A stretch of DNA of 64,000 nt from the NCBI GenBank assembly GCA_902622515.1, contig CACNQE010000003.1, positions 62,001 through 126,000 on the forward strand, in the 5' to 3' direction. This DNA comes from an uncultured SAR116 cluster alpha proteobacterium (GTDB taxonomy: Bacteria; Pseudomonadota; Alphaproteobacteria; Puniceispirillales; Puniceispirillaceae). The translations under genes were made by a program, and so were the position numbers. Position 1 is the first letter of the stretch; each line of letters starts with the position of its first letter. The notes under the pieces were generated by a model, which had not been told where the DNA came from, did not search any database, and was given only the letters and a program-made list of their open reading frames with translations. Shown one piece after another: positions 1,607-12,689 of the stretch.

Positions 1607-2842
1607 TTACAGGAGGTTTTTAAGTATTTCCTTTAAATCTACAGACCTATCTTTTATTATTGCAGGAGATATAGGAATGTTTTTCTCAATTAATCTTTTA
1701 CCTACCATGTAAGCTTGTGAGTCCTCCAAAGCTTCAACACAAACTAATTTATCCTGGTACCAGTTCCATACAGAAAAACTACCCTCTTTTTTTCCTTCAC
1801 GCACTTCAGCTCTTAAAAACTCGTCTTTTTTTGGTTTTGGTAAAATTCCTGCAATTTGCAATTTTAAGTCATATTGATCGGACCAAAACCAAAATACCGG
1901 TTGAGATGGTAAAGGAGAGTTAGTTATCGATGCCGCAGCTACCGTGGCACTAAATTGTGAATGAAAAACAGACTCAATTCGATTATTTAATTCTCCCGAA
2001 GAATAAGCAACATCGCCAATTGCATAAATATTTTTACCTGCTAAATAACTCGAGTCTACCTCCACGCCATCAGCAACCGAAAGTCCTAAATCAGTTGCGA
2101 GTTTTATATTCGGTGATACACCAATACCATATATTAGGATATCACAACTCAGAATTTTTCCAGAGCAGAGCTTTAAGGCCTCCACTTTATTAAATTTTGA
2201 ATAGATGATTTCCTCTATACTCTCACTTAGATGAATAGAAACACCCTCTTTTTGATGAACCAATTGCAAATAGTCAGAAATATACTGAGAGGAGACTCGC
2301 GATAGTAATCTTGGCGCAAATTCTATTAAATCGACAGAAAGTCCAATACTTCGTAAAGATGAAGCTACTTCCAGACCAATAAAACCGCCTCCTACAATTA
2401 CAGCTTTGTTTGCTTTTAATGCCCCTTTTTTTAATCGAACGGCATCTTCATTGTCTCGTAAAACATAAACATTACTAATATCTTTCCGGACATGAGCGGG
2501 AATTTTTGCATCAGCACCCGTCGCTAATATTAAAACGTCATAATTTATTTCTGAGCCAATCTCAAAAATTATCGAATTTGATTCTCTGTTCACGGCAAAG
2601 ACATTTTTACCTGTAACAAGTTCAATTTTCTCTTTTTCAAAATATTCTTTTTGACGAAGATAAAAGTTATGTAATTTGGCGTCTTTAGACTTAAGAAATT
2701 CTTTCGATAATGGTGGTCTCTGCACTGGAAGTCCAGGAATTCGGTCAATCAAAGTAATTTTTCCTTCGAATCCGTACTTACGTAATTTTTCAGCACAACT
2801 TATCCCCGCATGGCTTGCCCCAATTATTACAATTTTCTTCAT
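1607..2842 (-). CDS. FAD-dependent NAD(P)H oxidoreductase (ferredoxin/rubredoxin reductase type)
   Basis: A 411-residue flavoprotein of the oxygenase-coupled ferredoxin reductase family. The sequence shows an FAD-binding fold at the N terminus (IIGASHAGISCAEKL, about 5-19), an NAD-binding fold in the middle (VIVGGGFIGLEVASSL, about 148-163), the second FAD motif YAIGDVAY near 273-280, and a C-terminal reductase domain of about 90 residues. Such enzymes pass electrons from NAD(P)H to a small ferredoxin feeding a P450 or Rieske oxygenase. No ferredoxin or oxygenase gene is adjacent, so the partner must be elsewhere. Confidence 0.82.
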   Translation of the reverse strand: MKKIVIIGASHAGISCAEKLRKYGFEGKITLIDRIPGLPVQRPPLSKEFLKSKDAKLHNFYLRQKEYFEKEKIELVTGKNVFAVNRESNSIIFEIGSEINYDVLILATGADAKIPAHVRKDISNVYVLRDNEDAVRLKKGALKANKAVIVGGGFIGLEVASSLRSIGLSVDLIEFAPRLLSRVSSQYISDYLQLVHQKEGVSIHLSESIEEIIYSKFNKVEALKLCSGKILSCDILIYGIGVSPNIKLATDLGLSVADGVEVDSSYLAGKNIYAIGDVAYSSGELNNRIESVFHSQFSATVAAASITNSPLPSQPVFWFWSDQYDLKLQIAGILPKPKKDEFLRAEVREGKKEGSFSVWNWYQDKLVCVEALEDSQAYMVGKRLIEKNIPISPAIIKDRSVDLKEILKNLL

Positions 2843-3144
2843 TTATTTTCACTTTTTGGTCAAAAAAACAATTAGATTTCTAAAATTTTTATCAAATTTG
2901 CAATAAAGTTTCCAAATTTATGTTTTTCAGATGTGTTGATAAAACCCTAACTTTGCCTTGGCGATTTAATTAACCGAATGCCAGCGCATAACTACATTCA
3001 CGCATAATATAACCCTACCTATAAAAAAGAATATAGATAGCCATGTAGTTTTTTCTGAAAAACCAATTTTTGCTATTTTTTTGAATGAACACTAAATTAA
3101 CCCACGTAAAATCATTATGCCCGAAACCACCAAACAATAGCGTA

Positions 3145-3330
3145 TCATTCTTCATCTTTTTCCCAATCTGTTATAACACATAAAGCAAGCTTGGATGATT
3201 TGGCTACTATTTTTTTGTTAAAATCAACCCTCAACAAATCATGAGCAAATTTTCTGTTCAAGTAGAATTGTATTAAGAAAATTAATATCGAAAAATAATT
3301 TAAATAGCCAAAAATAACTGATTCAAGCAT
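3145..3330 (-). CDS. Possible small membrane-associated protein (61 aa)
   Basis: Weakly supported small ORF in the 640-nt gap between the reductase gene and proteorhodopsin. The product would have a hydrophobic N-terminal half (about residues 5-25, rich in I, L, F and Y) and a polar C-terminal tail ending DEE. An AAAGAG sequence lies about 8 nt before the ATG. No family is recognised. In such AT-rich DNA, aromatic- and Leu/Ile-rich ORFs arise by chance, so this may not be a gene. Confidence 0.25.
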   Translation of the reverse strand: MLESVIFGYLNYFSILIFLIQFYLNRKFAHDLLRVDFNKKIVAKSSKLALCVITDWEKDEE

Positions 3331-3420
3331 TTTATTTACTCTTTATAAGATTTATTTAAATTTTTTTCACAACTTAAGGTTGTTTTTTCAAAAAAAATAT
3401 TTTTTTACCTAATCTAATTA

Positions 3421-3448
3421 TTTTCAATTTTTCAATTGGTTATATAAT
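3421..3448 (+). promoter_or_regulatory. Candidate sigma70-like promoter for proteorhodopsin
   Basis: TTTTCA at 3421-3426 and TATAAT at 3443-3448, spaced 16 nt apart, in a very A/T-rich tract. The -10 is a perfect consensus match and the -35 is partial. In AT-rich DNA such matches are common, so this is only a candidate. Confidence 0.3.
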
Positions 3449-3568
3449 TTTTTATGTTTTTTTTAGTAAAAGCAATTTTCTTTCTTGCCTATACGTAAAT
3501 TTTTATACATGGTGTTTTCGGGGGAATCGATCTTTATCAAAATAAAGTTCGTGTTTAAAAAGGTAGGG

Positions 3569-3580
3569 CGTTCTAGAACG
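3569..3580. promoter_or_regulatory. Perfect 12-bp palindrome just before the opsin ribosome site
   Basis: CGTTCTAGAACG is a perfect inverted repeat with no spacer. It lies 10 nt before the GGGAG ribosome site (3590-3594) and 21 nt before the opsin ATG. It could be an operator half-site pair or part of the mRNA leader fold. It is more GC-balanced than its AT-rich surroundings. Confidence 0.3.
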
Positions 3581-3601
3581 AAGTTTTTTGGGAGTGTCCT
3601 A

Positions 3602-4366
3602 ATGACAATAATAAAATCTGCTGCTTTAGCAGCTTTAACAATTCTAATTCCGTCAATCGCATTTGCGGCTGGGGGAAACCTAGAGCCGAATGACCCTGTT
3701 GGTATTACTTTTTGGCTTATCTCTATAGCCATGGTTGCTGCCACAGTCTTTTTCCTTATGGAATCTTTAAGAGTTTCAGGTAAATGGAGAACATCGCTTA
3801 TTGTTGGTGGTCTGGTAACGTTAGTTGCTGCAGTGCACTACTTTTATATGAGAGATGTTTGGGTGAGCACAGGCCAGTCACCTACAGTATTTAGATATGT
3901 AGACTGGTTAATTACAGTGCCACTTCAAATGATCGAGTTTTACCTAATTCTGGCCGCATGTACCGCCGTTGCAATGGGGGTATTCTGGCGACTTCTAGTG
4001 GGTACAGTAATAATGTTACTTGGCGGTTACTTAGGTGAGGCTGGCTTTATAAATGCGACAGTTGGTTTCGTAATTGGAATGGCAGGATGGGCATACATTT
4101 TGTATGAAATTTTTGCAGGTGAAGCTGGCAAAGTTGCTGCAGACGAGGCTCCAGAGTCCGTTAAGTCTGCATTTAGCTTGATGCGTTGGATTGTGACAAT
4201 TGGATGGGCTATATATCCACTTGGATATTTCTTCGGTTATTTAGCCGGAGGTGTAGATGACAATTCACTGAACCTTATTTACAACGTAGCTGACGTTGTT
4301 AACAAGATCGGTTTCTGTTTAGCGATTTGGGCAGCTGCCACAAGCGAATCAGAAGCAAAAGCTTAA
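3602..4366 (+). CDS. Proteorhodopsin, blue-light tuned proton pump
   Basis: Light-driven proton pump of the inner membrane, 254 residues, seven transmembrane helices after a cleavable signal peptide (1-22, ending AFAA). Functional residues by alignment to green proteorhodopsin: His79 paired with the acceptor Asp101 in FRYVDW, Thr105, donor Glu112 (together the D-T-E proton-pump motif), and the retinal Schiff-base Lys235 in DVVNKIG. Position 109 is Gln, the equivalent of L/Q105, which marks the blue-absorbing form. The start was chosen at 3602 because it follows GGGAG and gives a normal signal peptide; the open frame extends upstream to 3485 but encodes nothing opsin-like. Retinal is supplied by the genes that follow. 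Confidence 0.97.
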   Translation: MTIIKSAALAALTILIPSIAFAAGGNLEPNDPVGITFWLISIAMVAATVFFLMESLRVSGKWRTSLIVGGLVTLVAAVHYFYMRDVWVSTGQSPTVFRYVDWLITVPLQMIEFYLILAACTAVAMGVFWRLLVGTVIMLLGGYLGEAGFINATVGFVIGMAGWAYILYEIFAGEAGKVAADEAPESVKSAFSLMRWIVTIGWAIYPLGYFFGYLAGGVDDNSLNLIYNVADVVNKIGFCLAIWAAATSESEAKA

Positions 4367-4375
4367 CTAAATCAA

Positions 4376-4410
4376 AGACAGGTTCAACTTTTGAGCCTGT
4401 CTTTTTTTTT
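4376..4410 (+). terminator. Rho-independent terminator between opsin and crtE
   Basis: A 12-bp stem (AGACAGGTTCAA at 4376-4387 pairing with TTGAGCCTGTCT at 4391-4402, one G-U pair), a 3-nt loop and a run of nine T (4402-4410). The crtE ribosome site GGGAG follows at once. It probably releases much opsin mRNA while some transcription reads through into the pigment genes. Confidence 0.88.
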
Positions 4411-4421
4411 GGGAGTAGTTA

Positions 4422-5438
4422 ATGCCGGATAGCTATTTTATAAGTGATAAACAGCATTCACCGTCCAATAAATACCTTAGCAATGGTTCTCAAAATTTAA
4501 TATTTAATGATTTTCTCAATTCTATCCTGCCATCAAATACACACCCCTTATCAGCGGCTGCAACTCACCATTTTTCCTCCAAGGGAAAGCAATTAAGAGC
4601 AAAAATAGCGCTAAGTGCAGGAGAAAAATTTGGAGCAGATAATACTGCATGTCTACATTGGGCTTCCGCAGTCGAATTACTACATAATGCATCATTAATT
4701 CATGATGATATTTGTGATGGAGACACTATACGCAGAAATAACGCATCTGTTTGGGCTAAATATGGCCGAGATATAGCGTTAGCGTTAGGAGACTGGATGA
4801 TTGCAGAAGCATTTGAACAGGCCGCAAAAGCCGCTTATGTATCTAATTCGGTTAATCTCGTAACCAAACTTTCAAATCACGTAAAATGCACTATTGCTGG
4901 TCAAGCCCTAGAATTTGACAATGCACTATATCCAGATATAGATAAATATATTGAGATTAGCGTTGGGAAAACAGCACCATTATTTGTTGCTGCTATTGAA
5001 GGGATAGCTGAAATTGCTGGGAGAAGTGAATTAATCGAGGAAATAAATCACTATTTTGTTACGATGGGCGTTTGTTATCAATTTGCGAATGATATTCAAA
5101 ATATTCTTGGAACAGATGGAGCCGCAAGTCCCTCCTCAGATTTAAAACGACGAGCACCAAATGCTGTAATTGTATATTTTCGTAATTTTCTTAAGACTCC
5201 GGAACGAACTCTATTTGATTCCTGGCTAGCTGGCACATCACAAAATAAAGCTAATTATTGGCAAAAGAAAATTACAGAATCTGGCGTAATTCATGAAGTT
5301 GCAAATGAAATGCGAAAATTATTGAAACGGGCAGAAGGTGTTTCTGGCACTCTCCCAAAAGATTGTATTGATGTTATTGCCCCAATCCAAAAACAACTTC
5401 GGAATGTATGTGAACAAGTTGGTACTTCTTGCCCCTAA
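4422..5438 (+). CDS. crtE: Geranylgeranyl diphosphate synthase
   Basis: Polyprenyl synthase of 338 residues making the C20 precursor of carotenoids by adding IPP to allylic diphosphates. GKQLRAK (55-61) and the first aspartate-rich motif HDDICDGD (94-101, Asp95, Asp96, Asp99) are intact. The second aspartate-rich motif, normally DDxxD, reads NDIQN at 223-227, so two of its three acids are amides. SDLKRR (239-244) follows as in the family. The start has a clear GGGAG six nt upstream, directly after the opsin terminator. The role as CrtE rests mainly on position at the head of crtIBY-blh-fni; chain length cannot be read reliably from sequence. Confidence 0.88.
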   Translation: MPDSYFISDKQHSPSNKYLSNGSQNLIFNDFLNSILPSNTHPLSAAATHHFSSKGKQLRAKIALSAGEKFGADNTACLHWASAVELLHNASLIHDDICDGDTIRRNNASVWAKYGRDIALALGDWMIAEAFEQAAKAAYVSNSVNLVTKLSNHVKCTIAGQALEFDNALYPDIDKYIEISVGKTAPLFVAAIEGIAEIAGRSELIEEINHYFVTMGVCYQFANDIQNILGTDGAASPSSDLKRRAPNAVIVYFRNFLKTPERTLFDSWLAGTSQNKANYWQKKITESGVIHEVANEMRKLLKRAEGVSGTLPKDCIDVIAPIQKQLRNVCEQVGTSCP

Positions 5439-5495
5439 TCTTTCTTATTACGTACATCAATTTATCACTATACAAAAAGCCTTATTTTTTTGGCG

Positions 5496-5565
5496 GTAGT
5501 AACTACATATTTTATATGTAATTTGCATTCATAACTTAAATAAAATAAGAAGTTACAAATATAAT
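5496..5565. promoter_or_regulatory. Dyads and TATAAT box in the crtE-crtI gap
   Basis: The 144-nt gap holds GTAGT-A-ACTAC (5496-5506), an inverted repeat TACATAT-TTT-ATATGTA (5504-5520), and TAACTT/AAGTTA arms at 5532-5537 and 5550-5555, followed by TATAAT at 5560-5565. No good -35 is seen. This may be an internal promoter/operator for crtI onward. The gap is unusual because every later junction in the cluster overlaps or is under 70 nt. Confidence 0.35.
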
Positions 5566-5582
5566 TATGGTACAATTTTAGT

Positions 5583-7064
5583 ATGACACGTTCTTTAGTT
5601 ATTGGCGCAGGACTTGGTGGAATAGCGACCGCCTTAAGGTTACGCGCAAAAGGGGATGAGGTAGAGGTTTTAGAGAGGCTACCTGCGGCTGGTGGTAGAG
5701 CTCAGGTTTTTGAGAAAAACGGTTTCAAACATGACGCGGGACCAACTGTGATTACTGCCCCGTTTTTATTCGACGAATTATTCAGCTTGTTTGGTGAAAA
5801 AAGACAAGACTACTTAGAGTTCAAACCCCTAGATTTGTGGTATCGTTTTTACTTTGACTCGACCGGTGATACATTCGATTACACTGCTAGTATTGAAAAA
5901 ACTAAAGAAGAAATTTCTCGCTTTAACAGAGAAGATACGGAGGGTTATGATAGGTTAATTAATACATCAGAAAAGATCTTTAATATAGGTTTTAGCGAAC
6001 TTGCTGATAAACCTTTTACAAAGTTTAGCTCAATGCTTAAACAAATTCCCTCTTTATTGAAACTCAAAAGCTACCTTTCTGTATCTCAGCTGGTAAATAG
6101 TCATATAAAACATCCTCAAATTCGCCAAGCTTTCTCAATTCACCCCCTGTTAGTAGGAGGTAATCCATTTGACACAACATCTATTTACGCACTCATTCAT
6201 TATCTAGAGCGGAAATGGGGTGTATTTTTCTGTATGGGCGGCACTGGTAAATTGATTGAGGAGCTAGAATCATTAATGGTTCGACAAAATATTTCTATCC
6301 GTTTTAATACAGATGTTGAACAAATTTTAGTCGAAAATGGGCGTTCAACTGGGGTTTTAACTAGCTCAGGAGAAATAATTTCTTCTAACCGAATAGTGTG
6401 TAATGCGGATACACCAGCTGTTTATGATGAGCTATTATCTGCGCAACCAAAACGCAAGAAAAAGGCCATTCCTGAAAAATTTACTCGATATTCAATGGGC
6501 CTATATGTATTATTTTTTGGTACAAATACGAAATATAAAAAAGTTGCCCATCACACAATATGGATGGGAAAGCGTTACCGTGAACTGCTCTCAGATATAT
6601 TCAACGCAAAAATATTAACAGATGACTTTTCCTTGTACCTTCACAGACCAACTGCAACAGACCCGTCTTTTGCTCCGGATGGGTGCGATAGCTTTTACGT
6701 GTTGTGTCCTGTACCTAACCTTCAAGGAAACGTAAATTGGGACGTACAAGGACCTGCTTTGCAGGAACGAATCATAAATGCACTTAACAGAACCATAATG
6801 CCAAATTTGAAAGAAACAATTGTGGACCCATTTTGGATGAGCCCACGTGAATTTAAGACCAACTATCGAGCAAAACATGGCGCTGGATTTTCTATTGCAC
6901 CAATTTTTGCACAATCAGCCTGGTTTAGATATCATAATAAAGATCCTCACATTAATAATTTATTCTTTACTGGCGCTGGCACACATCCAGGTGCAGGTAT
7001 GCCAGGGGTTTTATGTTCCGCAAAAGTTGTTGAAAATTTAATTGTAGAAGAACAAGTAAAGTAG
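5583..7064 (+). CDS. crtI: Phytoene desaturase
   Basis: FAD-dependent desaturase turning phytoene into lycopene, 493 residues, the usual CrtI length. It begins with a dinucleotide-binding fold (VIGAGLGGIATALRL, 6-20, with an acidic residue at the end of beta 2) and GGRAQVF (37-43), and ends with the family signature FFTGAGTHPGAGMPGV near 464-479. The start has only a weak ribosome site. The next gene follows closely. CrtI, CrtB and CrtY together give beta-carotene, the substrate for Blh. Confidence 0.95.
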   Translation: MTRSLVIGAGLGGIATALRLRAKGDEVEVLERLPAAGGRAQVFEKNGFKHDAGPTVITAPFLFDELFSLFGEKRQDYLEFKPLDLWYRFYFDSTGDTFDYTASIEKTKEEISRFNREDTEGYDRLINTSEKIFNIGFSELADKPFTKFSSMLKQIPSLLKLKSYLSVSQLVNSHIKHPQIRQAFSIHPLLVGGNPFDTTSIYALIHYLERKWGVFFCMGGTGKLIEELESLMVRQNISIRFNTDVEQILVENGRSTGVLTSSGEIISSNRIVCNADTPAVYDELLSAQPKRKKKAIPEKFTRYSMGLYVLFFGTNTKYKKVAHHTIWMGKRYRELLSDIFNAKILTDDFSLYLHRPTATDPSFAPDGCDSFYVLCPVPNLQGNVNWDVQGPALQERIINALNRTIMPNLKETIVDPFWMSPREFKTNYRAKHGAGFSIAPIFAQSAWFRYHNKDPHINNLFFTGAGTHPGAGMPGVLCSAKVVENLIVEEQVK

Positions 7065-7114
7065 TCAAAATAGATCGATTTTTGAGGTTTTTTGCAAAAA
7101 GGATAAAATTAGAA

Positions 7115-8050
7115 GTGCTTTCGGAAGCTGTAACGCAAAAAACGAATGAGGAATTGGACGCAACCATCAGCCTTCAAAAAAACGGAAAAAGTTTTTATTG
7201 GGCTTCTCATTTTCTTGGCCATGAAATGTCTAAAAATGCAGCCAAGTTGTATTCCTACTGTCGTATACTAGATGACTTAGCAGACTCAGAAATTGAGTAT
7301 GGCCCAGATAGGCTCAGAAATATACATCTGAATTTAAATAATAAAAAAAAATATTCTGACCCGCTTCTGGATGAAATGCTTATATTTTTTGAAGATATGA
7401 ACTTACCTTTCCGGGCTTTGAAGGACTTAATTGAGGGACTTCTGCAAGATCAAAACGATGTTCTAATTAAAAATGAGGCTGAATTAATTCAATATAGCTA
7501 TCATGTTGCTGGATCAGTGGGATGGATGATGTGTCCAATACTTAAATACAGAAATAAAAAAGCATTTGCTTTCGCAGTAGATCTTGGAATTGCTATGCAA
7601 CTTACCAATATTGCACGAGATGTACGGGAAGATGCTTGCATGGGGAGACGATATTTACCGTCCGATTGGGTAAACGATATGTCGCCAACAGATATTTTAG
7701 AGGCTTCCAAAAAACCAAATTCAAAAAATGCTCAATTAGTTAAAACGGCGATCATAAAGCTATTATGTCTTGCAGACCAGTATTATCGGAGTGGCATGAA
7801 AGGATTAGTTTTTTTACCATGGAAGGCACATTTAGCTATTGGTGTTGCAGGGTGTGTTTATCAAAAAATAGGAACCCAATTGATTGCCAAAAAAGTTAAT
7901 TGGTATGATGGACGCACAGTCACTTCCAGTTTTGCAAAAATTCTATCAAGCTGCAGTGTGTTTCCTCTTTTATTTTCAAGGTTTCTTAAACCTCCTAAAC
8001 ATGATGCTAAACTGCATCAATACCTTGCAGAAAAGCTTGATATGTTATGA
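7115..8050 (+). CDS. crtB: Phytoene synthase
   Basis: Joins two GGPP head to head to form phytoene. It has the squalene/phytoene synthase core: KSFYWAS, the first aspartate motif DDLAD (in RILDDLADSE) and the second DVRED (in NIARDVREDACMGRRYLP), both complete. Start is uncertain: GTG at 7115 has AAGGA 11 nt upstream, while a TTG at 7082 would add 11 residues and has no ribosome site. No ATG lies ahead of the conserved region. The 3' end overlaps crtY by ATGA, which indicates translational coupling. Confidence 0.93.
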   Translation: MLSEAVTQKTNEELDATISLQKNGKSFYWASHFLGHEMSKNAAKLYSYCRILDDLADSEIEYGPDRLRNIHLNLNNKKKYSDPLLDEMLIFFEDMNLPFRALKDLIEGLLQDQNDVLIKNEAELIQYSYHVAGSVGWMMCPILKYRNKKAFAFAVDLGIAMQLTNIARDVREDACMGRRYLPSDWVNDMSPTDILEASKKPNSKNAQLVKTAIIKLLCLADQYYRSGMKGLVFLPWKAHLAIGVAGCVYQKIGTQLIAKKVNWYDGRTVTSSFAKILSSCSVFPLLFSRFLKPPKHDAKLHQYLAEKLDML

Positions 8051-9189
8051 GCATTCAAACTAAAGGGGTGAAGGCAAAAACGGTGGCAATTGTTGGTGGT
8101 GGCTGTGCAGGCTGGTCTCTTGCAGCAAGAGTCGACCAACTATCTGCCAATAGTGTAACTCTCTACTTAAAAGAGGAAACTCACCCTTCCCATAATTGGG
8201 GATTCTGGCAGATGCCTTGGCTTTCTGACGCGTTGTCGAAAAAAAGGGCAATGTGGAATAGTTGGCAAATCATAACTGACGAGGGAATAGTAACCCATCA
8301 TAGCCGTAACCACGCTTATTGTAGTATTACGAGTGATGATTGGTTCGATTGGTGCCAAGAAAGATTTCATTCCGCAGCCACCACAACAGAGATCATAAGG
8401 TTACCTGTAACTAACACAGATAAGAATATACTAATGACATCGGATCATAAAAAAAGATATGATTTTATTTATGATTCTCGTCCTCCTAAGACAGATAAGA
8501 ACATTCTACTTCAGCATTTTAAAGGTTTGGAAATCAAAACATCAATCCCGGTTTTTAATTCTAAGGCTGCTGTTTTAATGGACTTCAGGGTATCTCAAAA
8601 AAACGGTATTCATTTCATGTATGTACTTGGTTATGACGCATATACAGCTCTGGTAGAATCAACTTTTTTTAGCACATCAACCCATCGAGAAGAAGTTTAT
8701 GACGAAGCAATAAAAGACTATTTAAGTCGTATTTATAATGTTACCAGCTTCAAAATCATAAAAAGTGAAAAAGGTATAATCCCAATGGGGGATGTTAGAC
8801 CAAAAGATCAAAATCCTTTTTTGTATTCTATTGGAAGCAATGCCGGAGCTATTAGACCCTCATCTGGCTATGCATTTAGCTTTATTCAAAAGCAAATTAC
8901 ACGATTTTTAGATCGTCAAACAAAACCAACAACCCCACATAAAAAACATGACTTAATGATGGATCATATATTCTTAGAGGTTCTTAAATCCCACCCAGAA
9001 AAAGCACAGAGACTTTTCTTTAAATTAGCAAGAGCGTTAGATGGTGACTCATTTGCTCGATTTTTAAGCGGTGAAGCCAATATTAAAGATTATTTTTTAG
9101 TTATAAACTCAATGCCTAAATGGCTATTTATTAATCAAGCCGTTAGAGTTATCATAGAAAAGTGGAAAAGGATAGCTAAATGGGCTTGA
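8047..9189 (+). CDS. crtY: Lycopene beta-cyclase
   Basis: Cyclises lycopene to beta-carotene. The protein has 380 residues with an N-terminal nucleotide-binding motif VAIVGGGCAGWSLAARV (13-29) and downstream segments typical of the bacterial CrtY family, including HNWGFWQMPW (49-58) and GIIPMGD. It starts inside the last codons of crtB (ATGA overlap) and overlaps blh by 10 nt, so crtB, crtY and blh are translated as a tight unit. Confidence 0.92.
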   Translation: MSIQTKGVKAKTVAIVGGGCAGWSLAARVDQLSANSVTLYLKEETHPSHNWGFWQMPWLSDALSKKRAMWNSWQIITDEGIVTHHSRNHAYCSITSDDWFDWCQERFHSAATTTEIIRLPVTNTDKNILMTSDHKKRYDFIYDSRPPKTDKNILLQHFKGLEIKTSIPVFNSKAAVLMDFRVSQKNGIHFMYVLGYDAYTALVESTFFSTSTHREEVYDEAIKDYLSRIYNVTSFKIIKSEKGIIPMGDVRPKDQNPFLYSIGSNAGAIRPSSGYAFSFIQKQITRFLDRQTKPTTPHKKHDLMMDHIFLEVLKSHPEKAQRLFFKLARALDGDSFARFLSGEANIKDYFLVINSMPKWLFINQAVRVIIEKWKRIAKWA

Positions 9190-10007
9190 TGTTAATTGAT
9201 TGGTGTGCGTTAGCATTAGTTGTGTTTATTGGTTTGCCACATGGCGCCTTAGATGCTGCTATTTCTTTTTCAATGATTTCTTCATCAAATAGAATTGCCA
9301 GATTAGCAGGACTACTATTCATTTACCTGTTGCTAGCAATAGCAATTTTTTTAATTTGGTATCAATTACCAGCATTTTCTCTTCTTATTTTTCTTTTGAT
9401 AAGCATAGTCCATTTTGGAATGGCTGATTTCAATGCATCCCCAACTAAACTAAAGTGGCCTCACATTATTGCACACGGCGGCGTTGTTGCTATTTGGTTG
9501 CCGCTTATCCATAAAAATGAAGTTACGAAGCTATTTTCAATATTAACAAATGGTCCAACTCCCATTTTATGGGACATACTTTTGATATTTTTTTTATGTT
9601 GGAGCATAGGAGTGTGTCTTCATATTTATGAAACTTTACGTTCTAAACATTATAATACCGCCTTTGAACTTATTGGATTAATTTTTCTAGCCTGGTATGC
9701 ACCCCCTCTCGTTACTTTTGCCATATACTTCTGCCTTATCCATAGCAGACGTCACTTCATTTTTGTGTGGAAACAGTTACGGGATATGAGTTCAAAAAAA
9801 ATAATGATAGGTAGTGCCATTATTTTATCTTTTACGAGCTGGTTGATAGGCGGAGGAATATATTTTTTTCTTAATTCGAAAATGATGGCCAGTGAAGCTG
9901 CTTTACAAACTGTCTTTATTGGTCTTGCGGCTTTAACGGTTCCTCACATGATACTTATCGACCTTATATTTAGACCACACTCTTCTAGAATTAGAACCAA
10001 AAATTGA
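9180..10007 (+). CDS. blh: Beta-carotene 15,15'-dioxygenase (Blh), retinal-forming
   Basis: Membrane-bound iron dioxygenase splitting beta-carotene into two retinals for proteorhodopsin. It has 275 residues and multiple hydrophobic segments. Histidines lie in GLPHGALD (His21), VHFGMADF (His78) and IHSRRH (His188, His192), the same positions described, from memory, as likely iron ligands in the characterised marine Blh; TVPHMILID (His256) is also present. The 10-nt overlap with crtY and the adjacent fni make a retinal-production operon. It is unrelated to the beta-lactamase-like protein that is also called Blh. Confidence 0.95.
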   Translation: MGLMLIDWCALALVVFIGLPHGALDAAISFSMISSSNRIARLAGLLFIYLLLAIAIFLIWYQLPAFSLLIFLLISIVHFGMADFNASPTKLKWPHIIAHGGVVAIWLPLIHKNEVTKLFSILTNGPTPILWDILLIFFLCWSIGVCLHIYETLRSKHYNTAFELIGLIFLAWYAPPLVTFAIYFCLIHSRRHFIFVWKQLRDMSSKKIMIGSAIILSFTSWLIGGGIYFFLNSKMMASEAALQTVFIGLAALTVPHMILIDLIFRPHSSRIRTKN

Positions 10008-10018
10008 GACAGTTTTTT

Positions 10019-11062
10019 ATGATTTCCCCCACCACAAAAGATTTAATTTCTTCTGCTCGTAAAGATGTTCATATTGATTTATCTAAATCAGAACTTTCTC
10101 GCTTCAATATTGTTCACCCTTTAGACCTAATTACACTGCCGCATAATGCTCTTCCAGAAATGGATTTTGATGATGTAGATACTTCTTGTAAATTTCTAAA
10201 CAAAGAATTGTCGTTTCCATTTATGATAACAGGAATGACAGGTGGCACTCCTCGTGGGAATAGACTAAATCTCGCCTTTGCAGAGGTAGCTAACCAATGC
10301 GGTGTTGCTTTTGGTGTTGGAAGCCAAAGAAGCAGCATTGCAAATGGTAAAAGCCAAAAGGAGTTGAGGAAATTAGCTCCAAAAATTCCAATTATTGGCA
10401 ACATTGGAGGCATTCAACTTGCGCAGGAAAATGGTTTAGAATTAGCTAAGGCTGCTATAGAAGACCTCGAGGCAGATGCTCTTGCAATTCATTTAAATCC
10501 GCTCCAGGAGATAATCCAACCAGAGGGAGAATCCAATTGGAGTGGCGTTCTAAATTCGATTGAAATAGCAGTAAAAACCTTACCATGTCCTATTCTCATT
10601 AAGGAAGTCGGTGCGGGCATAAGTTTACCTGTGGCCAAAAAACTTCATAACGTTGGAGTCTACTACATTGATGTTGCTTGTGCAGGAGGAACAAGTTGGG
10701 CGAGGATTGAAGCTGAACGACTTCCAAAAAGCCAGCGTGAGCTCTATGAGCCATTTCTTGATTGGGGACACCTAATTACAGATATTTTGCCCGAAATGCG
10801 ACAAATACTTCAACAAATCACAATTATTGGCTCTGGCGGTTTACGGAATGGACTTGATTTAGCTAAGCTTTTATATCTCGGCTGTCATATTGGGGGCGGC
10901 GCATCTGTTTTATTAAAATCGTTGGAAACAGAAGAATTAGAAGTTAAACAAGAGCATCTTTTTCAATCACTGAAAACAATAAAAGAACAATTATCCATCG
11001 CCTTATTTCTTACGGGGACCAATAAGGCAGATAATTTGAGTAACTTAAATAAAATGTTATAA
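10019..11062 (+). CDS. fni: Type II isopentenyl-diphosphate isomerase
   Basis: FMN-dependent isomerase interconverting IPP and DMAPP, supplying the allylic primer for CrtE. From the ATG at 10019 it has 347 residues with TGMTGG (71-76), GVGSQRSS (99-106), HLNPLQEIIQPEGE (Mg/substrate region) and glycine-rich flavin phosphate loops (IGSGGLRNG, GGGASVLL). A TTG at 10004 overlapping the blh stop would add five residues; the ATG has GAGAC nine nt upstream and is preferred. It is the last gene of the photosystem cluster. Confidence 0.94.
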   Translation: MISPTTKDLISSARKDVHIDLSKSELSRFNIVHPLDLITLPHNALPEMDFDDVDTSCKFLNKELSFPFMITGMTGGTPRGNRLNLAFAEVANQCGVAFGVGSQRSSIANGKSQKELRKLAPKIPIIGNIGGIQLAQENGLELAKAAIEDLEADALAIHLNPLQEIIQPEGESNWSGVLNSIEIAVKTLPCPILIKEVGAGISLPVAKKLHNVGVYYIDVACAGGTSWARIEAERLPKSQRELYEPFLDWGHLITDILPEMRQILQQITIIGSGGLRNGLDLAKLLYLGCHIGGGASVLLKSLETEELEVKQEHLFQSLKTIKEQLSIALFLTGTNKADNLSNLNKML

Positions 11063-11166
11063 AAAAAACAGTTTTTTTACTACAATAAAAAAATATATAC
11101 TTGCAAAACCGTTAAATATCTACCACCGTATATACTAAGACTTTATTAAAAGTCTTCCCCCAGACT

Positions 11167-11207
11167 GGAGGTCTCGGTTTTCCTACTTTCCGAGGCCTCC
11201 TATTTTT
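11167..11207 (+). terminator. Rho-independent terminator after the photosystem cluster
   Basis: Stem GGAGGTCTCGG (11167-11177) pairs with CCGAGGCCTCC (11190-11200) with a single G-U pair and a 12-nt loop, followed by a T-rich tail (11201-11207). The GC-rich stem stands out in AT-rich DNA. It lies about 100 nt beyond the fni stop. Confidence 0.85.
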
Positions 11208-11522
11208 AAACATAGTATTTAACGTTCTATCATTTTGTATCGTCTTTTAGATTACAATCTATGATTTCACAATGTAAGATTATATTTTGTAACTTAGTAA
11301 AAAAATAGATGCCAAATTCATTAATTTTAAATTAATGGGATAGCGGTAATTAATTTTTAATTAATAATGCCTTCGCCTTAAAACATTAAAAGAAAAAGAA
11401 TGGATTTAATTGTGTTACTCAAAATGCTTGCTTTAAATATAGTTTAAATTATGTTTTACAAGAGTGTTTTCAACTTTCTTTGCTAGGAAATTACAAAATT
11501 TTCAACGATAAGGTTTTAAGAT
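11208..11522. other. AT-rich intergenic region with dyads
   Basis: No gene seen. It contains CATTAATTT-T-AAATTAATG (11319-11337), a near-perfect 19-nt dyad, and a second AT-only dyad (ATTAATT-TTT-AATTAAT) around 11348-11364. These could be operator sites for the following oxidase gene or simply AT-rich chance symmetry. Confidence 0.4.
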
Positions 11523-12689
11523 TTGACAACTAAGTTAATGTCAAAATTCCCAAGAATTAGTGATCTAGAGCCAGCCGCTGCTAGAAACATTCCCCCATTT
11601 ATACATGCATATCTTGAGGCCGGGACTGGAAATGGGCATGCTATGTCTCGCAATCGAAAAGCTTTAGACAAAGTCACATTCACACCCGAATTAATGCATG
11701 GAAGATTTGTCCCCAATCTAGAAACTAAGTTTTTGGGTCAGACATTTTCAATGCCATTTGGTGTTGCCCCCATTGGATTATCTTCTATGATTTGGCCTCT
11801 ATCCGAACATCACCTCGGAGCAATGGCAGCAAAATTAAATATACCCTATACACTTAGCACTGTTGCGGGAGCAAGCATTGAAGATATTGGAAGTAAATGT
11901 GATGGATTTGGCTGGTTTCAATTATATGCGCCACACAGCCGTGCAATTATGTCCTCTTTATTAGAGAGAGCAGTGAGTTCAAATATGAGGGTTTTGGTAG
12001 TTACAGGAGATGTGCCTGGGCCTAGTCGACGAGAAGATATGCGCAAAGCTGGAGCACCCATTGGTTCTAGGAATGAAACTAAAATGAACTTAAAAATGCT
12101 TTTACAAATCTTGCAGCATCCAAGATGGGCTTTGGCTGCATTGGAACTAAAAGGCAAACTCCGTTTTAAAAATATGGAACCCTATGTTCCCAGAGATAAC
12201 TCAAAGCCTATATCAGAATTTATAGGAGAACAGCTTAACGGTTCATTAACTTGGGAATATTTGTCAGAAATTAGAAAACATTGGAAAGGCAAACTGCTCT
12301 TAAAGGGCGTGATGCAAAAATCAGACGCGATGAAAGCTGTTGATATGGGTGTTGATGGGATAGTGGTTTCAAACCATGGCGGCAGACAGTTTGACGGGAA
12401 CCCTGCTTCTATATCTGCTCTACCCTCAATACGCCAAGCAGTCGGACCTAAATACCCACTTGTTTTTGATAGCGGAATCCGGTCTGGTCTTGATATACTT
12501 AGAGCCCTGGCATTAGGAGCAGATTTCGTTCTTGTTGGGAGACCATTTTTATATGGGTTAGCTGCTATTGGAACACACGGCGGAGAACATGTTGCACAAA
12601 TACTTGAAGAGGAAATCAACAACGCGCTTCTCCAAATAGGAGCACAAAACATACCTGAATTACGCCAGCGCCTAGATTTAAAAAATTAA
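11523..12689 (+). CDS. FMN-dependent alpha-hydroxy-acid oxidase/dehydrogenase (LldD family)
   Basis: A 388-residue enzyme of the L-lactate dehydrogenase/glycolate oxidase/mandelate dehydrogenase family. Visible active-site elements: WFQLYAP with Tyr135, the VTGDVPGPSRREDMR strand, Lys261 in LLLKG, and SNHGGRQFDG with catalytic His285 and Arg288, followed by the phosphate-binding GADFVLVGRPFLYG. The substrate cannot be told from sequence; L-lactate, glycolate or another 2-hydroxy acid is plausible. Start is either TTG at 11523 (AAGG nine nt upstream) or ATG at 11538. The gene converges with the helicase gene, overlapping it by 4 nt. Confidence 0.88.
   Translation: MTTKLMSKFPRISDLEPAAARNIPPFIHAYLEAGTGNGHAMSRNRKALDKVTFTPELMHGRFVPNLETKFLGQTFSMPFGVAPIGLSSMIWPLSEHHLGAMAAKLNIPYTLSTVAGASIEDIGSKCDGFGWFQLYAPHSRAIMSSLLERAVSSNMRVLVVTGDVPGPSRREDMRKAGAPIGSRNETKMNLKMLLQILQHPRWALAALELKGKLRFKNMEPYVPRDNSKPISEFIGEQLNGSLTWEYLSEIRKHWKGKLLLKGVMQKSDAMKAVDMGVDGIVVSNHGGRQFDGNPASISALPSIRQAVGPKYPLVFDSGIRSGLDILRALALGADFVLVGRPFLYGLAAIGTHGGEHVAQILEEEINNALLQIGAQNIPELRQRLDLKN

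Follow-up and report, generated by a model that had tools for sequence, protein, structure and literature searches.

How might a cell obtain much opsin message and less message for the retinal-making enzymes from genes that lie one behind the other on the same strand? We addressed this question in a 64-kb window (the whole stretch of DNA analyzed, G000:C3:62001-126000) within a 2.1-Mb draft genome of a marine SAR116-type bacterium. Between 3602 and 11062 the plus strand of the window carries opsin, crtE, crtI, crtB, crtY, blh and idi (Table 1), and it is the presence of opsin with crtE, I, B, Y and blh on one strand that identifies a proteorhodopsin photosystem cluster. In gene content and strand the cluster resembles the proteorhodopsin-crtEIBY-blh clusters of marine bacteria (PMC8547437, PMC2860489, PMC3380642), whereas the junction structure, its spread and the putative opsin ORF exchange are not described in the accessible portions of those papers. 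The name crtE is taken from the Pfam family and the place of the gene, since its product scores below the cut-offs of all NCBIfam GGPP synthase models. From crtB through crtY and blh to idi, neighboring ORFs share 4-10 bases (8047-10007), whereas crtE has gaps on either side, so the break between opsin and crtE is conspicuous. A figure in Martinez 2007 reportedly marks predicted terminators.

Table 1. Features of the opsin-retinal locus, in window coordinates.
Feature	Position	Strand	Remarks
Opsin leader, nearly invariant, 45 nt	3557..3601	+	GTAGGGCGTTCTAGAACG at 3563-3580; opsin ribosome site GGGAG at 3590-3594
Proteorhodopsin, blue type	3602..4366	+	VPLQMIEFY, tuning residue Q; PF01036, E 2.8e-46
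Terminator hairpin (by scan)	4374..4404	+	14-bp stem, 5 of 14 pairs G-C, loop of 3
U tract, nine T	4402..4410	+	first three T can pair with A's at the stem foot
crtE ribosome-binding site GGGAG	4411..4415	+	directly after the last T
crtE-like polyprenyl synthase	4422..5438	+	PF00348, E 1.3e-38
TGGTACAATTTTAGT before crtI	5568..5582	+	weak candidate extended -10 (5571-5576) for a leaderless crtI transcript
crtI, phytoene desaturase	5583..7064	+	TIGR02734, 539 bits, above cut-off
crtB, phytoene synthase	7082..8050	+	PF00494
crtY, lycopene cyclase	8047..9189	+	PF05834
blh, beta-carotene dioxygenase	9180..10007	+	TIGR03753, 215 bits, above cut-off
idi, type 2 isopentenyl-diphosphate isomerase	10004..11062	+	TIGR02151, 322 bits, above cut-off

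The 55 nt between the end of the opsin stop codon and the crtE ATG are taken up, in order, by a 7-nt spacer, the hairpin, the nine T, the ribosome site and six further bases. The hairpin core folds at -14.7 kcal/mol with a modest G-C share, and the 71-nt stretch around it folds at -24.6 kcal/mol (z -4.59), a value that none of 200 shuffles reached. A stable G+C-containing hairpin with a U tract directly after the stem is the anatomy of an intrinsic terminator, and the site obtained a formula-based terminator score of +40.5. When both strands of the window were scanned, the opsin-crtE hairpin was the sole site of the strict class (stem of at least 7, at least 4 G-C, T-rich tail), while 0, 0, 1 and 0 sites turned up in four single-strand controls from a first-order Markov model. 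For stems of at least 8 the same one-strand controls gave 0, 4, 0 and 0 sites, one of them exceeding the observed number. Looser classes stood at control level once the one-strand control counts were doubled, with 25 sites against 18-28 for stems of at least 5 and 12 against 8-14 for stems of at least 6. The hairpin scored 27.6 in the scan and was the top terminator-like site of the 64 kb (runner-up, 13.8); across 298 kb of the genome, made up of the window and 12 sampled stretches, it ranked second among 16 such sites, 5 of which were flagged inside ORFs. The sequence-only reading had placed a strong hairpin with nine T between the opsin stop and the crtE ribosome site, and the coordinates, the z value and the window scan all agree with it; its interval, 4376-4421, takes in the hairpin, the U tract and the ribosome site.

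Other identities for the structure were also considered. An Rfam search of 2800-11600 with E up to 1 gave nothing above threshold, riboswitch and attenuator families included; its only match, alpha_tmRNA at 3477-3700, was sub-threshold (15.5 bits vs 50). An outer helix pairing the opsin stop with the crtE start was rejected because it varies among relatives. Origin of the stem from a repeat family was rejected as well, since its 13-mer occurs exactly once in the genome; with one mismatch it occurs at six places, namely the other arm of the hairpin and five scattered sites, and a reversed control pattern also gave 6.

Is the hairpin kept in relatives? We compared 111 rows, the window and 110 loci, among them 80 named loci taken as the best 80 of at least 570; contig positions show that certain genomes enter twice under different ids (L014 = L050, L004 = L031). 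The nearest named record found was L031 (isolate AH-326-N16), whose opsin is 98% identical to that of the window. An opsin-crt junction was within reach in 99 of the 111 rows, the other 12 having none or being unusable. A hairpin with a U-rich tail by a loose rule (5 T in 8) was present at 77 of the 99 junctions (24/44 opsin-crtE, 53/54 opsin-crtI and 0/1 opsin-blh) and at none of the 232 other junctions in these operons, where the regions searched were shorter. The sequence-only reading had pointed to related genomes as the place to check the hairpin, and there it was borne out: in equal 80-nt windows with identical ones removed, a strong fold (MFE z < -2) followed opsin at 77 of 78 distinct opsin-crt junctions, 35 of 36 before crtE and 42 of 42 before crtI, vs 12 of 207 others, although distinct junctions contain near relatives and the counts are not independent. 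Simple hairpins (at least 8 bp, at least 4 G-C) gave a similar picture, with 67 of 78 against 5 of 207. The structure is kept, within the operon, only at the opsin junction, and the layout of a terminator at the opsin end recurs in many lineages with different stem sequences.

The fold is not confined to opsins followed by crt genes. Seven rows had no crt gene found after opsin, and six of them gave z < -2, two barely (-2.15 and -2.02), with L105 at -1.49. Four further rows, L015 and L023, in which the contig ends soon after opsin, and L065 and L069, had an opsin 3' fold of z < -3; one of the twelve rows set aside was unusable. In L065 and L069 the opsin terminator is separated from crtI by some 700 nt, where an additional gene may be present. 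Because a strong fold also ends six of the seven opsins with no crt gene found near, the structure belongs to the opsin 3' end. Judged from sequence, the hairpin is first of all the end of the opsin gene itself, and opsin looks like a unit of its own. The fold need not concern the opsin:crt ratio, since it also ends opsin genes for which no crt neighbor was found. The suggestion of the sequence-only reading that tight spacing reflects control of stoichiometry rather than separate units is weakened by these opsins, and also by the 13 of 70 distinct junctions that have 51-108 nt from stem to crt start, where a promoter would fit.

Taken further, the same six rows would suit the idea that a mobile opsin unit simply left its end behind as the terminator, with no effect on crtE visible to selection. 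We consider this very unlikely, because in the seven sequences of the window genus the letters of the stem are nearly invariant while the spacer before it drifts. Within these seven sequences 12 of 13 counted stem pairs are invariant and one is U-A or U-G, so that no covariation is on offer. In a related set of 14 distinct sequences, chosen by a pattern that itself fixes part of the stem, all cells pair (100%), and both partners have changed in 2 of 11 pairs.

A hairpin at this place could also act on mRNA decay. The puf operon is a photosynthesis operon, and the product of the gene upstream of its hairpin is needed in excess. With a barrier of the puf/malEFG type, transcription would continue into crtE, an RNase would cut downstream, and the hairpin would block 3'-5' exonucleases, leaving the opsin part to outlive the crt part. 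Like the puf and malEFG intercistronic hairpins (PMC5927463, accessible part), the present one follows an upstream operon gene, but it carries a U tract. The same part of that survey reports that for 26 of 34 stabilized upstream genes in E. coli the end lies immediately behind a stable hairpin that lacks a U tract, and that gene pairs split by an intrinsic terminator were excluded. Here more junctions retain the fold than the tail, 82 distinct junctions being divided into 63 with hairpin and U tract, 8 with a hairpin lacking the U tract, as in puf-type hairpins, and 11 without a simple hairpin by the rule used, several of which look like interrupted hairpins. L002, of the window genus (L002:824-884), keeps the decay barrier alive, since it retains the stem of the window and has lost most of the U tract (terminator score -11.1). 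The tail nevertheless scores as a terminator in the other six genus sequences including the window (+16.9 to +40.5, same formula), and we regard a decay barrier acting in place of termination as unlikely.

If the hairpin does terminate transcription, how is crtE expressed? In the window genus only 14-19 nt lie between the end of the stem and the start codon, which hold the ribosome site, and there is no room for a separate crtE promoter after the terminator; all seven crtE leaders of the genus have a 5-base ribosome site and no -10. Among 70 distinct junctions, with start codons assigned by rule, 42 have a distance below 36 nt and 57 one below 50 nt. A promoter would then have to lie within opsin, with complete termination of the opsin transcript. 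A candidate of this kind is present in the green-type opsins of L012, L014 and L016, where TTAACA-N16-TATCAT, a 10/12 promoter-like match, starts 68 nt before the opsin stop; 0.5-0.6 such sites are expected by chance per genome. In the window a scan of the plus strand for sigma70-type promoters gave no site in 3618-5922, which includes the 3' half of opsin, and a sigma70-like scan that began 400 nt ahead of the opsin stop and ran to crtE gave none in the four blue-opsin genomes, namely the window, L003, L002 and L031. Transcription begun within the ORF would still run into the terminator, and each exchange of the opsin ORF (see below) would presumably replace such a promoter. We therefore consider a crtE promoter within opsin quite improbable.

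Read-through is thus the best supported account of crtE expression, as far as the anatomy goes. The sequence-only reading had proposed a terminator with read-through to crtE; the terminator-type structure, the missing promoter space and the missing sigma70-like site at this locus stand, and read-through itself is a matter of interpretation. On balance we favor a mechanism in which the hairpin is the intrinsic terminator of opsin, leak-through supplies crtE, and the 3' hairpin also protects the opsin mRNA, with a possible further start at crtI. Polymerases would start upstream of the opsin leader, and most of them would end transcription within the U tract, near 4402-4412, giving an abundant opsin-only mRNA shielded at its 3' end by the hairpin. 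A minority would read through into crtE, whose message would be served by the ribosome site directly after the last T, and a second start from crtI on may add transcripts. Such termination in vivo, at whatever efficiency, would provide a concrete layout for much opsin and little pigment enzyme in one of the commonest marine photosystems, and the resulting ratio may benefit the cell.

Lalanne et al. 2018 reportedly described intrinsic (Rho-independent) terminators that lie within operons and adjust the expression of the genes behind them. The present structure is like them in having a hairpin and U tract between co-directional genes, an intact ribosome site and no space for a downstream promoter; it differs in that a similar structure also ends opsin genes without crt neighbors, and in that its termination and read-through are predicted from sequence. 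As to relative message levels, the expectation of much opsin and less pigment message agrees in direction with Antarctic metatranscriptomes, in which, at the community level rather than for SAR116 specifically, retinal genes were transcribed more than 10-fold less than proteorhodopsin (PMC8386455, accessible part). For a Vibrio, the accessible part of PMC9040609 showed no time course of the retinal enzymes at the level of protein, and blh mRNA broadly tracked opsin mRNA.

The possible crtI start is only suggestive. In the window the -10-like TGGTACAAT (5568-5585) stands 6 nt before the crtI ATG, making a separate, leaderless start of crtI a candidate. The crtE-crtI gap drifts among relatives, and its best-kept part adjoins the crtI ATG. 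The TACAAT hexamer is intact in 3 of 7 genus genomes (the window, L003 and L014/L050), with TGCAAT in L002 and L031, TACAAC in L012 and TACCGC in L016. Among 70 distinct crtI leaders a -10-like hexamer was present in 19 vs 10.2 expected, a modest excess, and a ribosome site in 6, vs 44 of 54 opsin and 20 of 36 crtE leaders. At several SAR11-type loci a TATAAT-like hexamer precedes a TTG start by 8-9 nt.

At the other end of the opsin gene lies a second conserved element. The leader follows the pattern GTAGGnCGTTCTrGAACG...GGGAGTGTCCTA(A)TG and hardly varies across several genera; over 3553-3602 the window and its six relatives in the genus are 90-100% identical, with blue- and green-type ORFs at about 68%. 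With at most one mismatch allowed, 18 of 61 genomes contained a single copy of the leader motif, in every case just upstream of an opsin match, and we rejected a regulon element on the ground that the motif occupies a single place by opsin in each of the 18. A predicted leader hairpin takes in the ribosome site (z -2.27), and over a longer stretch the fold is at chance level (z -0.13); a covariation test of the leader hairpin gave no compensatory pair. Viral contigs contained no crtE relative and no exact copy of the leader motif. A second SAR116 family has a different 50-nt leader, identical in L010, L033, L040 and L041, in which blue and green types are 0.72-0.84 identical.

The leader and the terminator enclose an ORF that may not share their history in every genome. 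The tuning position, where Q gives blue and L green absorption (PMC5864233, accessible part), is Q in the window, L003, L002 and L031, and L in L012, L016 and L014, so that both opsin types occur in a single genus between similar flanks that look native. Between the window and L050 identity is 100% in the 50 nt before opsin, 0.68 in the ORF, 0.83 in the 60 nt after it and 0.96 in crtI. At informative sites L050 groups with the window and L003 at 120 of 123 upstream, 20 of 137 within the ORF and 93 of 98 between the opsin stop and 5583. As a caveat, L014/L050 derives from a single metagenome bin (contamination, 7%), and shared leader stretches can mislead assembly. The 5' switch of L050 falls within 3554-3610, in the leader, and the 3' switch at about 4344-4416, in or near the terminator; three of its five dissenting downstream sites are in the hairpin (4390, 4391 and 4395).

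In quick trees built from 56 distinct rows, 3 changes of the Q/L label suffice for the opsin tree and 13 are needed for the crtI tree, at least 10 of which are forced by starred branches. With groups chosen after the trees were seen, the AU test rejected an opsin clade of the window, L031 and L050 (p 0.0006) and a crtI clade of the window, L031 and L032 (p 3e-54), and weakly rejected the window with L031 to the exclusion of L050 for crtI (p 0.042). L032 has a blue opsin nearest to those of the window genus and a leader closer to green-opsin rows such as L019 and L023. The crt operons themselves may also move.

These data suggest that the opsin ORF is, with moderate probability, an exchangeable cassette. 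Recombination in the conserved leader and terminator would swap the ORF and its color while the leader, terminator and retinal operon stay native, and tuning in these lineages would mostly change with the ORF as a whole rather than through point mutation of residue 105. The putative cassette boundary is the most surprising part of the locus. If the cassette is real, it would explain how blue and green pumps are traded without disturbing regulation, and it would bear on the Sorcerer II question of why SAR11 tuning variants look lineage-restricted and how they switch (PMC1821060, accessible part). In the literature covered, consisting of titles and abstract openings with few subscription journals, no paper named a terminator at the opsin-crt junction or an exchange of the opsin ORF. 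An exact ORF exchange was not clear in the second SAR116 family, where four blue/green pairs were 0.84 identical in the leader, 0.63-0.68 at the junction and 0.73-0.74 in the ORF. Several rows of the window's own family carry L at the tuning position, against 90 of 91 blue opsins in the accessible part of a SAR116 survey (PMC8547437).
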